Below, piece after piece: positions 2-6,105 of a stretch of 6,105 bases of DNA (the first letter of the stretch is position 1; every line of letters begins with the position of its first letter). The DNA lies in assembly GCA_003557485.1 (NCBI GenBank), contig PWOI01000186.1, positions 1-6,105 on the forward strand, read 5' to 3'. The notes beneath the pieces were generated by a model, which searched no databases, had not been told where the DNA came from, and saw only the letters and a program-made list of their open reading frames with translations. Source of the stretch: Elusimicrobiota bacterium (GTDB taxonomy: Bacteria; CG03; SLGR01; PWQF01). The position numbers and the translations under genes were made by a program.

Positions 2-163
2 ATGACCGAGCAGTGCTGGCGCGCCGTAAGCGGAACTCAATCCTGGACTTTTTCAGAGATACCGGATGGTGAATTTAAGTCCGGCCATAAATATATTGTA
101 TGGAGCCGCGCTGAGGACAAAGCCGGAAATATAGCAATAGGACCGGGAACCACTTTCTATTAC
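2..163 (+). repeat. Unit A0, C-terminal part of a class A repeat cut by the window edge
   Basis: Residues 1-54 match the second half of the other class A units. The Trp at 15 in SWTFSE corresponds to the W-x-Y/F position. SGHKYIVWSRAEDKAGN (residues 27-43) is the consensus form of the late motif, and FYYD leads into the next unit's D-R-T-P-P. This is the reason to believe that the array continues upstream of the window and that the ATG at base 2 is an internal Met codon. Confidence 0.85.
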
Positions 164-3100
164 GACAGGACGCCTCCCCATACGGAAATTCTTGAGCCTT
201 CCCAGGAATTTTACAGGGAGCTTGGCTCAATATCGGGGACTTCGCACGACCTTCCCGCTTCTCCGAAACACCGTTCCGGGATGGCGTCGGTAGGACTTAA
301 GATAGCCGATGTTACTGCATCCCCGATAGAGTACTGGACGGGAACCGCCTGGTCAACAACAACATCTGTTTTCGTTCCGATTTCTCCCGAAGTAGATAAC
401 AGCTGGTCCTACAATACTGTAATTGCGGGAATAGAGTGGAAAGACGGTCATGAATACGAACTGGTTTCAAAAGGTGAGGATAATGTAGGCAATACCCAGG
501 TGGTTCTCTCAACTGTTTCCTTTAGATTTGTAACTACGCCGCCCAGTGTCTCTTTCATAAGGCCTTCCCACGGTGACGATCTGAATATCCTTAGTGAAAT
601 AAGGGGAACAGCGTCTTCCGAGTTTACAGATGTGGACAATGTTAAGCTCCGTATACAGGACAGGGCTTCTTCTCCCTATCTTTATTATGACGGTTCTGAA
701 TGGGTCCAGGATGATTCCGTAAGAGTCCCTGCAACCGGAGGCGGAAGCAAATCAATAACCTGGTATTATGACAGGGGAGGGACTCTAAATCAGATATGGT
801 CTGACGGACACAACTACCGGGTTATACCGTTTGTTGAAGACAGTATAGGCAACATAAGGCAGGGCAGCCATGTAGGGTTTACTTATGACATAACCTCACC
901 TACTTCAGCAATAACTATTCCTGCAGACGGAACGCATCACAACCGCCTTTCCCTTATATCCGGGACATCATATGACGCCACAGCCGGTGTTGAAGAGGTC
1001 CACGTCAGGATTTATGATATTGATGCGTCCAATTACTGGGACGGCAATTCATGGCTCGGTGATGAAGACGACTGGCTGCCTGCAACCGGCAGGCCGGGCT
1101 GGAGTTTTGATTCATCTTCAGTTGACTGGGTTGACGGGCACAGTTACCGGATACAGTCCCGTGCCACCGACCGCGCTACCGATGTTTTCGGCGATAATCC
1201 CAACATTGAAAATGTTGATGAAGAAGACGGTATTGTTATAGTAAACGATGAGAGTTACCCTGATTCCTTTGTAGAAATTCCGGAAAACAATGATATAAGA
1301 AACTATCTTCCCGTAATAAGCGGTACGGCTTCCGATGATGCGCCAGGTGAAATAACCGGCGTGGGGCTTCAGATTCACAGAACCGTAATAGGCGGGTACT
1401 GGAACGAGACATTAAATGAAGGAAGCGGCGGCTGGGCCGAAACACCTCACTGGAACGAAACTTTAAGCGATGACGGGTTTGAAACCTGGTCCTGGGATGC
1501 GGACGGGGTATGGACTACCGGAAGAACCTACCAGGTAACATCAAAGGCAATTGATAAAGCCGGCAATGAGGAAGAAAGCCCCGTAACAGTTTCTTTTACA
1601 TATAATACGGCTGAGCCTGTTACCTATATTTCAGTTCCCCAGCATAATATAACTACAAATACCCTGACCAGGATAAGCGGTACCGCGGAGAGCGGCCATG
1701 CCGCCGCCTCCGTAACTCAAGTGCATATGCTTATCCAGCGGGATGACGGACAGTACTGGGACTGGACAAGCGGTTTTTCAAGCGAAATGGAATGGGGTAT
1801 CTGTGACGGCACATATGACTGGGCAATGGATTCTGCCGAACCCGGAGTGTATCTGCCTGATTGGCAGTCAGACAGAACCTATACGATACATACCCGGGCC
1901 CGGGATAATGCCCTGCCGATCAACAACTATGAGAGTATGGGCGAGCCGGGTGCCAGCAACGCGCACAGTTTTACTTTTGATAACATCGGGCCCGATACTT
2001 CTTTTACCTACCCTGTTGCCGGCACTCATTACACTCCGTCCGATCTCGGTCCCGTTGTGAACGGTTTTGCCGAGGACGAAACAAGTGACGTTGAGAAAGT
2101 TGAAATAAGCATAGAAGAAGACAAAACAGGTCATTTTTTTATAAGCGGTTCCGGTTTCGGAAGCGTATTGTTTGAAAACAGCTGGATTGAAACAACTATT
2201 GACCAGGCAGCGTCTTCAACGACCTGGCAGTATTCCGATGCTATGCTTACCGATATATCGGGCTGGAAAGAAGGGATATACCGTTTCCGCAGCCGGGGCA
2301 CGGATAATATAGGAAACGTTGAAACTGTAGGCGCCGGGTTTACTGTAGTTGTAGATACTACTCCTCCGGTTTCCAAGGTAAACCATCCGGCCCACGAGGG
2401 GATATATGAAGATACCGGTGTGACTCTTCTAAGCGGAACAGCCGCTGATACCGCCCCCGGCCAGCTGGATAAGGTCCAGATAAGCATAAACATAAGAGGT
2501 TACAAGGGGAGTAATAATTATTACTGGAACGGCTCAACCTGGACAGATACGGGAGGAGCGCCACTTTATCTGCCAACGGGAGGCACGGCGGCAAACTGGA
2601 ATTATTCAATGTCGGCCTCTAACTGGATAACAGGTATGGTTTACCGTGTTCAAACCAGGGCTACCGATAAGGCGGGTAACCAGGAAACAGGAATAACCTA
2701 TAATGAATTTACCATTGTTCTTCCGGCTGAGGAGTTTGTAGTTACCGGGGTTACAGGCGGGCTTGCTGCCGGATCTCTGCAAACAGTATATGTAGAGGCT
2801 CTTGACCGGCACGGTCAGAGAGCTTTGACTTACGATGGTACTGTAAGATTTATTACAAAAGACGATGAAGAAATATTCGAAATTTCACAGTCGCGTTGGG
2901 CCGAATCTACATTCGAAGACGGAAACGAAAGGACTTTTACAGATGAATACGGCGGCGGCTACATGATTTTTTCAAACTTCTTTCGCTACAGGACAGCGTC
3001 AACTTCTGAAGCTGACAGGAAGTTTCTTGGAGTTTACGATATTGATAACACATCAGTTAAAGGAGCGCAGCAGAATATATCGGTTAATCCGGCGGCGCCT

Positions 3101-6100
3101 GACAGGATGCAGGTTATCTATACTCCCGGCGAGACCCACAGGCCCGGTACAAGCGCCGGAAAATCCGGTTCACCGGGTTCTTATCCGGCCGGCGGATCTT
3201 TCACTGTTACAATTAATATAACAGACCAGTACTGGAACGTAGCCCACGGCTCGGATACGGTAAATATTACAGTAACGGACCCCAATGCTGATAATCCCGG
3301 AAGCGTGGTGGTAGATGGTTCTGAAAGTATTTCTGTGACAATGATTACGGCGTGTGAGCAGTGGGTGGAGGTGGTTTCGCCCAAATATACCGATTTTCTT
3401 AAGGGGCACGCGCAGAACAACCCGGTAATGATTCAGCCCGATACAGCTGTAGGCCTGCAGGTGCTTCTTCCCGGAGAAGTTTCCGCTCCCGGCACTTCAA
3501 CCGGAAAAACAATAGAAGAAGTTGTGAAGCCGCAGTCGGATGTCCCGTTTATGGTTACTGTAAACGCTGTTGATAACTATTACAATGTAAATGCCGCCGC
3601 TGAACCCGAAGTTATGCTCAGCCACAGCGACAGTTCCATATACGCGTCCGAAGCTTCAACTTATACTCTCACCAATGGTTCGGCCGAAATAGAAGTCAGG
3701 CTTATAGTAGCCGGCGCTCACACGATAATGGCCCAGGATACCGATCTTGCCGGGCTGGATCCTGATTCATCCGGATTAACAGTGACTTACGGCGCCGGAA
3801 GACAACTCCAGGTCCTTATGCCCGGCGAACTGAGAGATCCCGGAACGGTAGCCGGCAAGAAAGAATTTCCCGCGCAGCAGACAGCCGGAAAGGCTTTTAA
3901 ACCTGTATTCAATCTTACCGATAATTACTGGAATATTGTTACCGGCACGACTGTTGTAGTTATGGTCCAGACAAGCGATCCTTACGGCACGGTTGACGGC
4001 ACTCCTCAGGACCGGACCAGGACCATAGGTGCCGGCGGTACCAGGAATGATATTGATATAATAAACAGGATAGCCTGGGACGGCTCCAATGCGGCCCAGC
4101 ATAAAATCAACGTCAGCGCTGCCGGATGGGAAAGTTATGAGTCCAGTTCAGTTCAAATGAATCCAAATTCCGCTACCGGGCTTCACGTTCTTCTTCCCGG
4201 CGAAGTCTATCTGCCCGGGTCCCCCACCAGCAAGGATTCATCAGGAATCCAGTCCCAGGTAGCCGGTTCGTCATTTACGGTTGTAGTACGCGCGGTAGAT
4301 GATTATTTCAATATTCAGCCCTCATCCAATCCTTATGTGCGGATAACTTCCGATGATGTTTATCATTCCGCCGAGAGCTCAAAAGAACTTTTTAACGGTA
4401 TTGCCAGCTTCTGGATAACTTTAAACGACGCTACAAATGATCCCTGGACGGTTACCGCCTCAACTGCCGGAGGCGAGAACCTTTACCCCTATACATCTTC
4501 GCAGGTATCGTTAAACGCGGCGGATCCCGCGAAGCTCCAGATACTACTTCCGGGAGAGGTAGCCGTTCCGGGTTCGCCTTCAGGTAAGAATTCCGCAGGT
4601 ATCCAGAGCCAGACTGCCGGAACAGAATTTAACGCAACCGTGAATCTTGTTGACGAGCAGTGGAATATAGTTGAGGCCGCCCCGGAAGTGGAAATAGGGA
4701 CCGATAATAATTACAGTGTTCTTCCGCCTTCTACTGAACTTATCGGGGGAACGGCAGTTTTTCCCGTAACTCTCTATACAGCCGATAATACAGTGCTTAC
4801 CGCAACCGATATCAGCGGAGTATATGATCCGGATACATCTACTGTTTTTCAGGTTAATCCCAGGACTGCAGACAGGCTTCTCATAGTATTCCCGGACGGG
4901 GAAGAGGCCGACCCGGGCCGCTGGAGCGGTGTTTCCGGGCCTCCCTACGGTAAAATCGGCAGTCCCGATCCGGTGACTGCAGGAGTGGATTTTGAAGTCA
5001 GGGTGAAAGCAACAGACCAGTACTGGAACGTCAATCCTGGGGCTTCTTCTGTTATAAGGTTGCTTACCCTTGACGATGGATATGCTCCCGATATAGAGGA
5101 TTTGACCCTTACACAGGGGACGACATCATTTATGGCCCAGCTCAGGATTGCCAAGGGATCCAGCCGTATCCGCGCCGAGGTTGAATCGGGCACTCATTAT
5201 ACCCCCTATACATCGGCAGGGCTTCAGGTTAACCCGGCTCCCGCCACAAGGCTTCTTGTCATAACCGAAGGCGAGTTCCATGAGCCGGGCAAAGAGGATA
5301 CGGGTAAAACCATTGGGAGCAACCCCGGATTACAGACGGCCGGAGAGGAATTTAGTATAGATGTTTATATCACGGATGACTTCTATAACATAAATCCCGC
5401 CTATGAACCGGAGGTTGAAATAACTCTTCAGGATCTCAATGCCGCGCCGCCGCTGCTCAGTACCCTTACCCAGGGAGCTACTACTTTCCCGGTAACTTTT
5501 AAGACTGCATATCGGGTACCTGATACTTCCGCCGGTTCCTGGAAGACCTGGACAATAACGGCGCGGGATACCGAGGAAGATTATGCTCCTTATACTACTC
5601 CCGGCATTCCTGTGAAGTCCGCTTCCGCGTCAAAACTTCTCGTTCTTCTTGATGGGGAGACACACGCGCCCGGAACCGCGCTGGGCAAGACAGGTCCCGC
5701 GGAAGAGCAGGTGGCGGGAGAGGTGTTTCCGATAGTTCTTATAGCGGTGGACGATAACTGGAACCGTGATTATACCGTACAGAAAACAGTTACTATTGAA
5801 ACCGAAGATCCCCACGATACTGTTCCCCGCACGCGTACCCTTATGGACGGGAGAAGAACGCGGGATGATATGACAATGCGTACCGTAGGCAGCTGGTGGA
5901 TAGAGGCCTCGGCCGAGGATCTGGTAACCTACAGAACAGAACCAGTGGTTATAAATCCCGGTACTTTCAGCAGGCTGCTTGTAAAACTTCCGGGTGAGGA
6001 ATTTGAGCCGGGAAGCAATACAGGGCTTTCAGGTGAACCACAAGATCAGACGGCCGGGCAGCCAATTGAAATAGTAGTCCGCGGAACAGATAAACATTTT

Positions 6101-6105
6101 AACCG
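2..6105 (+). CDS. Giant Ig-like repeat surface/secreted protein, internal fragment (open at both ends)
   Basis: One frame runs through the full window with 2,034 complete codons and no stop; the last two bases begin a further codon. The translation is low in Cys (only residues 5, 601 and 1118) and visibly rich in Thr, Ser, Gly, Asp, Glu and Trp. It contains no hydrophobic stretch long enough for a membrane span. It divides into a class A array (residues 1-907), a transition domain (908-1031) and a class B array (1032-2034), all in beta-sandwich style with alternating hydrophobic strands. The ATG at base 2 is not taken as the start: no upstream sequence is available, and residues 1-54 are the tail of a class A unit. 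In known bacterial proteins such arrays form extended stalks of adhesins or other exported proteins; that role is inferred here. No enzyme motif, signal peptide or anchor is in view. The coding call is very secure; the ligand and true length are unknown. Confidence 0.96.
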   Translation, partial: MTEQCWRAVSGTQSWTFSEIPDGEFKSGHKYIVWSRAEDKAGNIAIGPGTTFYYDRTPPHTEILEPSQEFYRELGSISGTSHDLPASPKHRSGMASVGLKIADVTASPIEYWTGTAWSTTTSVFVPISPEVDNSWSYNTVIAGIEWKDGHEYELVSKGEDNVGNTQVVLSTVSFRFVTTPPSVSFIRPSHGDDLNILSEIRGTASSEFTDVDNVKLRIQDRASSPYLYYDGSEWVQDDSVRVPATGGGSKSITWYYDRGGTLNQIWSDGHNYRVIPFVEDSIGNIRQGSHVGFTYDITSPTSAITIPADGTHHNRLSLISGTSYDATAGVEEVHVRIYDIDASNYWDGNSWLGDEDDWLPATGRPGWSFDSSSVDWVDGHSYRIQSRATDRATDVFGDNPNIENVDEEDGIVIVNDESYPDSFVEIPENNDIRNYLPVISGTASDDAPGEITGVGLQIHRTVIGGYWNETLNEGSGGWAETPHWNETLSDDGFETWSWDADGVWTTGRTYQVTSKAIDKAGNEEESPVTVSFTYNTAEPVTYISVPQHNITTNTLTRISGTAESGHAAASVTQVHMLIQRDDGQYWDWTSGFSSEMEWGICDGTYDWAMDSAEPGVYLPDWQSDRTYTIHTRARDNALPINNYESMGEPGASNAHSFTFDNIGPDTSFTYPVAGTHYTPSDLGPVVNGFAEDETSDVEKVEISIEEDKTGHFFISGSGFGSVLFENSWIETTIDQAASSTTWQYSDAMLTDISGWKEGIYRFRSRGTDNIGNVETVGAGFTVVVDTTPPVSKVNHPAHEGIYEDTGVTLLSGTAADTAPGQLDKVQISINIRGYKGSNNYYWNGSTWTDTGGAPLYLPTGGTAANWNYSMSASNWITGMVYRVQTRATDKAGNQETGITYNEFTIVLPAEEFVVTGVTGGLAAGSLQTVYVEALDRHGQRALTYDGTVRFITKDDEEIFEISQSRWAESTFEDGNERTFTDEYGGGYMIFSNFFRYRTASTSEADRKFLGVYDIDNTSVKGAQQNISVNPAAPDRMQVIYTPGETHRPGTSAGKSGSPGSYPAGGSFTVTINITDQYWNVAHGSDTVNITVTDPNADNPGSVVVDGSESISVTMITACEQWVEVVSPKYTDFLKGHAQNNPVMIQPDTAVGLQVLLPGEVSAPGTSTGKTIEEVVKPQSDVPFMVTVNAVDNYYNVNAAAEPEVMLSHSDSSIYASEASTYTLTNGSAEIEVRLIVAGAHTIMAQDTDLAGLDPDSSGLTVTYGAGRQLQVLMPGELRDPGTVAGKKEFPAQQTAGKAFKPVFNLTDNYWNIVTGTTVVVMVQTSDPYGTVDGTPQDRTRTIGAGGTRNDIDIINRIAWDGSNAAQHKINVSAAGWESYESSSVQMNPNSATGLHVLLPGEVYLPGSPTSKDSSGIQSQVAGSSFTVVVRAVDDYFNIQPSSNPYVRITSDDVYHSAESSKELFNGIASFWITLNDATNDPWTVTASTAGGENLYPYTSSQVSLNAADPAKLQILLPGEVAVPGSPSGKNSAGIQSQTAGTEFNATVNLVDEQWNIVEAAPEVEIGTDNNYSVLPPSTELIGGTAVFPVTLYTADNTVLTATDISGVYDPDTSTVFQVNPRTADRLLIVFPDGEEADPGRWSGVSGPPYGKIGSPDPVTAGVDFEVRVKATDQYWNVNPGASSVIRLLTLDDGYAPDIEDLTLTQGTTSFMAQLRIAKGSSRIRAEVESGTHYTPYTSAGLQVNPAPATRLLVITEGEFHEPGKEDTGKTIGSNPGLQTAGEEFSIDVYITDDFYNINPAYEPEVEITLQDLNAAPPLLSTLTQGATTFPVTFKTAYRVPDTSAGSWKTWTITARDTEEDYAPYTTPGIPVKSASASKLLVLLDGETHAPGTALGKTGPAEEQVAGEVFPIVLIAVDDNWNRDYTVQKTVTIETEDPHDTVPRTRTLMDGRRTRDDMTMRTVGSWWIEASAEDLVTYRTEPVVINPGTFSRLLVKLPGEEFEPGSNTGLSGEPQDQTAGQPIEIVVRGTDKHFN
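1247..1603 (+). repeat. Unit A4, class A repeat with an internal short duplication
   Basis: Residues 416-534 open with D-E-S-Y-P-D and have SGTA at 440-443. At the usual YW-x-G site the unit reads YWNETL (466-471), and 17 residues later HWNETL (483-488). The two hexapeptides are encoded by sequences at 1397-1414 and 1448-1465 that agree at 15 of 18 bases. Downstream the unit returns to consensus: WSWD at 497-500, GRTYQV at 507-512 and DKAGN at 518-522. The segment between the copies is Gly-rich, as in a loop. Membership of class A is secure; the duplication is seen directly, though its origin (slippage or convergence) is inferred. Confidence 0.75.
1979..2353 (+). repeat. Unit A6, the most diverged class A repeat
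   Basis: Residues 660-784 keep the class A frame: the opening Asp is 11 residues before Pro 671, WQYS lies at 742-745, and RSRGTDNIGN at 763-772 matches the late motif. However, SGTA is replaced by NGFA (687-690), three residues later than in most units. The YW-x-G-x-x-W centre is also absent; in its place is a Gly/Ser/Phe-rich stretch (FFISGSGFGSVLF, 712-724). The unit probably folds like its neighbours with a different central hairpin. It could be a specialised domain rather than a decayed one, since the reading frame and the core positions are intact. Confidence 0.7.
2723..3094 (+). other. Transition domain (B0) between class A and class B arrays
   Basis: Residues 908-1031 fit neither array well. 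The start, around residues 912-950, reads as FVVTGVTGG then AGSLQTVYVEALDRHGQ and YDGTVRFIT. This resembles the widespread bacterial Ig-like pattern 'AG-x-x-x-x-V-x-V-x-A-x-D-x-x-GN ... Y-x-GTV-x-F'. The domain ends with ISVNP (1026-1030), the same closing strand as class B units. Compared with class B it lacks the G-E-x3-P-G element and has Gly (938) where class B has an aromatic. Its C-terminal half (960-1010) contains an aromatic- and charge-rich segment without a counterpart in either array. I read it as the founding or capping member of the class B array. Boundaries are good to within about ten residues. Confidence 0.68.
3220..3240 (+). repeat. 21-bp exact direct repeat, copy 1 (unit B1)
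   Basis: This stretch, coding for TDQYWN plus flanking bases, is identical to 5011-5031 in unit B6, 1,791 bp downstream and in the same codon phase. The match ends abruptly on both sides. Shared codon choice in a conserved motif, a short conversion tract or chance could explain it. Confidence 0.7.
4166..4864 (+). repeat. Units B4 and B5, the adjacent class B pair with near-matching spacers
   Basis: B4 (residues 1389-1506) and B5 (1507-1621) have the same spacing from the Glu of GE-x3-PG to the Phe of AG-x-x-F (24 residues). Their spacers, 1405-1422 and 1523-1540, agree at 13 of 18 positions, including the shared string GIQSQ followed by x-AG. Other units have quite different spacer sequences here. 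This suggests that these two neighbours descend from a later tandem duplication than the rest of the array. Their downstream halves have diverged more, and B5 has Gln instead of an aromatic before the Trp of its D-x-x-W-N motif. Confidence 0.65.
5011..5031 (+). repeat. 21-bp exact direct repeat, copy 2 (unit B6)
   Basis: This is the second copy of the 21-bp match with 3220-3240. It covers the D-Q-Y-W-N core of unit B6. Surrounding codons in the two units are unlike each other, so it is an island of identity rather than part of a longer recent duplication. Confidence 0.7.
5960..6103 (+). repeat. Unit B9, N-terminal part of a class B repeat cut by the window edge
   Basis: Residues 1987-2034 hold the first part of a further unit: LLVKLPGE, GE-x3-PG at 1998-2004, QTAGQ at 2016-2020, and D-K-H-F-N at 2030-2034. 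All landmarks are at the expected spacing, except that Ile replaces the usual Phe after AG and Leu replaces the Lys of GK. The window ends inside this unit, so the array continues downstream. Confidence 0.85.

Follow-up and report, generated by a model that had tools for sequence, protein, structure and literature searches.

The window analysed here, 6,105 nt in length, is an entire contig (C135) of the source genome, a draft assembly of 2.07 Mb in 212 contigs that is 87% complete. It is filled by a single open reading frame of 2034 aa (nt 2-6103, forward strand), which has neither a start nor a stop and is a fragment of a giant surface-protein gene. Along this frame, other Ig-like repeats (class A) are followed by one plain domain and then by an array of nine units that we refer to as class B (Table 1).

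Table 1. Features of the window, with positions in nucleotides; aa numbers refer to the open reading frame
Feature	Positions	Strand	Landmarks and evidence
Class-A Ig-like repeats, Big_13 / Big_3-like, with DxxGN	2..2719	+	Sub-threshold Pfam: Big_13 E 4e-5, Big_3_3 E 2e-3
Plain Ig-like domain preceding the array	2720..3076	+	Sequence: D-R-H-G-Q, without hairpin, without aromatic
Class-B unit 1	3077..3421	+	GETHRPG aa 1043, DQYWN aa 1075
Class-B unit 2	3422..3772	+	GEVSAPG aa 1158, DNYYN aa 1191; Big_1 E 1.5e-3, sub-cut-off
Class-B unit 3	3773..4147	+	GELRDPG aa 1275, DNYWN aa 1307
Class-B unit 4	4148..4501	+	GEVYLPG aa 1400, DDYFN aa 1433; part of three-unit model
Class-B unit 5	4502..4846	+	GEVAVPG aa 1518, DEQWN aa 1551; single-unit model pLDDT 95.3
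Class-B unit 6	4847..5218	+	GEEADPG aa 1633, DQYWN aa 1672; hairpin 7 residues longer; in three-unit model
Class-B unit 7	5219..5602	+	GEFHEPG aa 1757, DDFYN aa 1792
Class-B unit 8	5603..5941	+	GETHAPG aa 1885, DDNWN aa 1917
Class-B unit 9, ended by contig end	5942..6103	+	GEEFEPG aa 1998, DKHFN aa 2030

Within the window, the class-B units agree with what the first-pass annotation had reported: all nine carry the motif GExxxPG, and all nine have an aromatic residue in place of the Gly of a D-x-x-G-N motif, giving Dxx[WYF]N. The fixed spacing described at the same time holds for the hydrophobic residue eight positions before the Asp (Phe in eight units and Ile in one), as expected for a beta strand entering a turn, but not for the distance between the two motifs, which varies from 32 to 39 residues (from the Gly of GE to the Asp: 32, 33, 32, 33, 33, 39, 35, 32 and 32 in units 1 to 9). 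Only G, E, P, G, D and N are invariant among the nine units. At the frequency found in the phylum, the occurrence of GExxxPG in nine of nine units has a probability of about 8e-4, for a pattern that was spotted after the fact. Since the pairwise identity of the units is only 24-44% and no tandem repeat is detectable in the DNA of the window, the array is not a recent duplication; recent tandem amplification was rejected on these grounds and on the positional orthology of the units described below.

A profile of the nine window units gives 29 matches in the source genome, those outside the window lying mostly on two other contigs (C84 and C33), and detects class-B arrays in eight further genomes of the phylum. 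Outside the phylum, 11 genomes in a sample of 290 have matches at E<=1e-10. One other genome of the source genus (G001, 82% complete) contains no class-B match; the gene may have been lost there or may be absent from the assembly. A contig scan with the window array as the seed found no relative because the peptide patterns had been drawn from variable parts of the units; on their own, the nine window units have no stretch conserved enough for scanning. The successful scan was seeded with an alignment of closer units and returned 28 named loci with class B, from Elusimicrobia, Endomicrobia, Pedobacter and other Bacteroidota, Ignavibacteria, Verrucomicrobia, Calditrichota, KSB1, Eisenbacteria and others. 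In the cultivated Pedobacter (L087, L095 and L100), proteins of around 2000 aa contain class-B arrays with about 6-7 units. Class B strictly alternates with plain DxxGN domains in Calditrichota, KSB1 and another bacterium (L098, L099 and L101).

Conservation was evaluated on a family set of 484 full class-B units from about 30 genomes. The first-pass annotation had taken GExxxPG as an invariant of the repeats, and this does not extend to the family: the motif is complete in 8/8 full window units, in 4/17 full units elsewhere in the source genome (C84 and C33), and in about half of the units in other genomes (65/144 in the phylum, 151/315 outside it). The Glu (E18) is present in 367 of the 484 units (76%); in the remaining 117, it is replaced mostly by Gln, Val or Met. 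It is absent from 11 of the 17 units elsewhere in the source genome, where the Asp stays invariant. GE..PG was therefore rejected as the family signature, given a Glu present in only 76% of units and a complete motif in about half. The real family signature is Dxx[WYF]N: D49 is found in 484/484 units, N53 in 480/484 (99%) and an aromatic at position 52 in 463/484 (96%), and Gly occupies the aromatic position in six of the 484. Also well conserved are G23 (462/483), G82 (459/477) and D68 (433/482, 90%).

The proposal that class B forms a distinct Ig-like subfamily, with an aromatic for the Gly of D-x-x-G-N, is borne out, in that no model in Pfam-A or NCBIfam covers the class-B unit. When 85 class-B units were compared with Pfam, one of them matched Big_1, below its gathering cut-off (E 1.5e-3, 19.1 bits against 34.9). 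Class B has no significant sequence match in the PDB (best E 0.12), and none of the papers covered by a literature search describes a giant adhesin whose Ig-like domain is extended at the N-terminus in this way. A relationship to known families is obtained through the plain domains of about 103 residues, which have DxxGN, lack the N-terminal hairpin and alternate with class B in KSB1, Calditrichota and related loci. Profile-profile comparison aligns class B with these plain domains (P=6.9e-11), the alignment starting at QTAG, past the hairpin. The plain domains in turn have matches to FdeC, an adhesin of E. coli (E=3.3e-9), and to Big_1 and Invasin_D3, both below the cut-off. Since the homology starts after the hairpin, class B is, judged by sequence comparison, an Ig-like core of the invasin/FdeC lineage plus an N-terminal hairpin of about 33 residues plus the aromatic at the Gly position.

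The hairpin lies between strand A and strand B and has the sequence pattern LLPGE..PG....GKtG.P..QTAG. It occurs together with the aromatic, which is found in 463/484 units with the hairpin but in only 5/24 domains without it (Fisher P=3e-19); among these five cases is one class-B unit truncated at the end of a contig, which means that the contrast is, if anything, understated. AlphaFold2 predicts unit 5, on the basis of 85 units, with a pLDDT of 95.3 and a pTM of 0.87, and units 4-6 together with a pLDDT of 95.4 and a pTM of 0.88. A pTM of this size for three domains suggests that the prediction is also confident about how they are placed relative to one another. The best match of the three-unit model is the three-domain FdeC rod (Z 13.8, 291 residues aligned); the rmsd of 10.5 A indicates that the bends between the domains differ.

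Covariation was calculated by mean-field direct coupling analysis (DCA) on the 484 units (effective number 442), and on 379 adjacent pairs for couplings between units. As a check on the method, DCA recovers the strand pairing 46-83, 45-86 and 42-87. Within the hairpin, E18 is coupled to K28 (DCA z 8.4; mutual information, MI, z 14.1), with Glu accompanying Lys or Arg (P=1.7e-12); this signal is weak when only the phylum is considered (P=0.046). Column 12, in strand A, covaries with the aromatic (MI z 13.3).

Between units, the strongest coupling connects column 70 of unit n, in the D-x-[Y/N] loop of columns 68-70, with column 24 of unit n+1, the residue following Pro-Gly (DCA z 10.6), and is followed by the column pairs 68-23, 93-22 and 70-21. 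The DCA maxima for units two and three apart are 5.6 and 5.0. With shuffling within arrays, the MI z for the column 70-24 pair is 11.9 toward unit n+1, -0.3 toward n+2, -0.8 toward n-1 and 0.0 in the same unit. The underlying rule is that Asn70 pairs with Thr24 and aromatics at position 70 pair with other residues (58:29 vs 12:210, P=6.7e-29, near-duplicate genomes removed). These counts are of units rather than of independent events, and the controls at n+2 and n+3, which share the same relatedness, stay weak. The rule also holds within the source genome by itself (4:0 vs 1:16, P=8e-4) and outside the phylum (P=1.5e-18); it is not significant in a small non-Elusimicrobia subset with few non-Asn cases (P=0.17). 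Because this covariation is restricted to n+1, each unit seems to dock, through its Pro-Gly turn, on the D-x-[Y/N] loop of the unit that precedes it.

The window can be placed in a larger gene by comparison with relatives. Unit k of the source genome matches unit k of two relatives (G002 and G004) at most of 22 positions, with best matches that are collinear, and these three genomes belong to three different families; the ordered 22-unit array is thus conserved among them. As the units are collinear, and C84 starts at unit 10 while the window stops in unit 9, the two contigs most plausibly represent successive parts of a single gene, separated by a gap of about 95 residues. The open reading frame on C84 has 4266 aa, and another contig (C103) is an upstream piece with 43% identity to G002 (E=3.5e-295). 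The relatives exceed 16,000 aa: in G002, a piece of 12,757 aa that begins with a signal-like N-terminus is complemented by one of 3,524 aa that runs to the stop, and in a further genome (G008) the two pieces, of 13,401 aa and 3,847 aa, lie on contigs sharing a 69-nt overlap. C33 was rejected as part of the same gene copy, since it parallels a stretch of C84; the whole contig runs parallel, in diverged form, to part of the C84 array and to the domains that follow it, and represents either a second copy of the gene or a strain variant within the bin. An insert in the giant protein on C84 (L031, nt 10492-10734) reads like a cupredoxin (plastocyanin-type) copper-binding fold, with the candidate pattern FNP...GTHVRWNW...H...MHTHNF...M, and no Pfam match at E<=0.01 is listed for it.

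The C-terminal tail of the giant protein scores above the cut-off of 23 bits against the type IX type A sorting model TIGR04183 (30.6 bits for C84, 24.6 for G002), and two PorV-family genes, also above cut-off, lie downstream of the giant gene on C84. The source genome also encodes a SprA-like open reading frame of 1731 aa (E 5e-25, with a score under the curated cut-off), and most of its PorU matches fall on the C-terminal domain. The best reading of these model matches is that the protein would be exported to the surface by a type IX-like secretion route. In the stretch 3' of the giant gene (L114, C84 from 12700, nt 188-9812) there are also a REP-type transposase-like protein with a DnaA C-terminal HTH and a 1946-aa FG-GAP surface protein with its own sorting-like tail; one of the two PorV-family genes is fused to TPR repeats.

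We consider it probable, taking the evidence as a whole, that class-B units are hairpin-docked invasin-type Ig domains that interlock into the stiff rod of a giant surface protein. The hairpin of unit n+1 would be a docking arm on unit n, and the Glu-Lys pair would hold this hairpin in shape. The Asp and Asn would close the turn after strand B, the ancestral turn of the domain, and the aromatic would pack against strand A inside its own unit. Chaining of at least 22 such units would give a stiff rod or stalk, and the architecture suggests an adhesive role for the giant protein, which probably serves attachment or contact at a distance. In a more far-reaching form, which we regard as possible but rather doubtful, the hairpin is a dedicated docking arm in a widespread Ig-like family, and a code of Asn-Thr versus aromatic-Ser/Lys matches neighbours and helps to keep the unit order in an ancient, non-homogenised array, producing a self-ordering stalk within proteins of more than 16,000 residues.

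Other readings give the conserved residues different roles. The first-pass annotation had suggested that they form a structural site, possibly for metal binding or inter-domain packing. Packing between domains is retained here, via the Pro-Gly turn and columns 68-70 of the preceding unit rather than via Glu, Asp and Asn together. A single metal-binding or structural site, defining the subfamily and formed in each unit by the Glu, Asp and Asn together, would account for their joint invariance in the nine window units; we judge it very improbable, as the Glu is replaced in 24% of the family while the Asp is invariant, and as the Glu covaries with a basic residue, Lys28 in the same hairpin, its covariation with columns 51-52 being weak. 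A joint stiffened by Ca2+, in which D68 of unit n and the backbone of the Pro-Gly turn of unit n+1 hold the ion, has a precedent in the repeats of MpAFP, which are stiffened by inter-repeat Ca2+ and by a hairpin touching the preceding repeat (PMC4083281), and is consistent with the conservation of D68, which covaries with G23 in the following unit (MI z 5.1). The coupled columns show no second conserved acidic ligand (position 70 is Tyr, Asn, Phe, Trp or His), and ions are not part of AlphaFold2 models; we consider this joint unlikely. Slightly less likely still is that the units are ordinary flexible beads with no specific joint, whose conserved residues serve each unit's own fold; the fold is a common one, and D-x-x-G-N domains of this type occur in FdeC, invasin and intimin, but the direction-specific covariation between neighbours, the pTM of the three-unit model and the positional orthology of the units argue against it.

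Most giant surface proteins of uncultured bacteria lack annotation, since their domains have no match. Class B defines one such unnamed domain, together with a testable rule for the fit between neighbours. The Pedobacter copies bring it within reach of bench work, and the alternating arrays are a natural experiment on the hairpin beside a different neighbour. A neighbour-matching code in an ordered array, if true, would bear on how long repeat proteins escape homogenisation, and misfolding between like neighbours.

Among known systems, class B resembles the domains of invasin, intimin and FdeC (Big_1, PF02369; Invasin_D3, PF09134) in its predicted Ig-like fold (Z 9.3 for invasin, 9.2 for FdeC and 9.1 for intimin), the D-x-x-[x]-N turn after strand B, the tandem rod arrays and the homology through interspersed plain domains. 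It differs from the invasin and FdeC domains in the hairpin, in the aromatic that replaces Gly and in scoring far under the Pfam cut-offs; no intimin/invasin beta-barrel is seen in the readable part of the giant protein's tail. The nearest single-domain fold is the C-terminal Ig domain of GH2 beta-galactosidases (Glyco_hydro2_C5 type), which matches the whole unit (Z 11.6, rmsd 2.5, 97 residues aligned). However, that domain is a single accessory domain of an enzyme, is not in tandem and is 14-21% identical to class B, and the family gives no match at E<=0.01 with the 85 class-B units. The RII repeats of MpAFP, an ice-binding RTX adhesin, likewise form a long tandem Ig rod with a hairpin that contacts the preceding repeat (PMC4083281), the joint in class B being a predicted one; the MpAFP repeats are near-identical and Ca2+-dependent, whereas class-B units are diverged and conserved in order. 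Very large repetitive surface proteins are known from uncultured bacteria such as Omnitrophota, and Elusimicrobia are listed among the lineages in which giant genes are common (PMC12057145, PMC11573180). The passages of these two papers considered here describe no domain of the class-B kind, and it is a domain family and its joint that we propose here. The known kind to which the array would belong is the invasin-type Ig array, and what appears to be new is a hairpin-bearing, aromatic-turn family with a putative docking joint.
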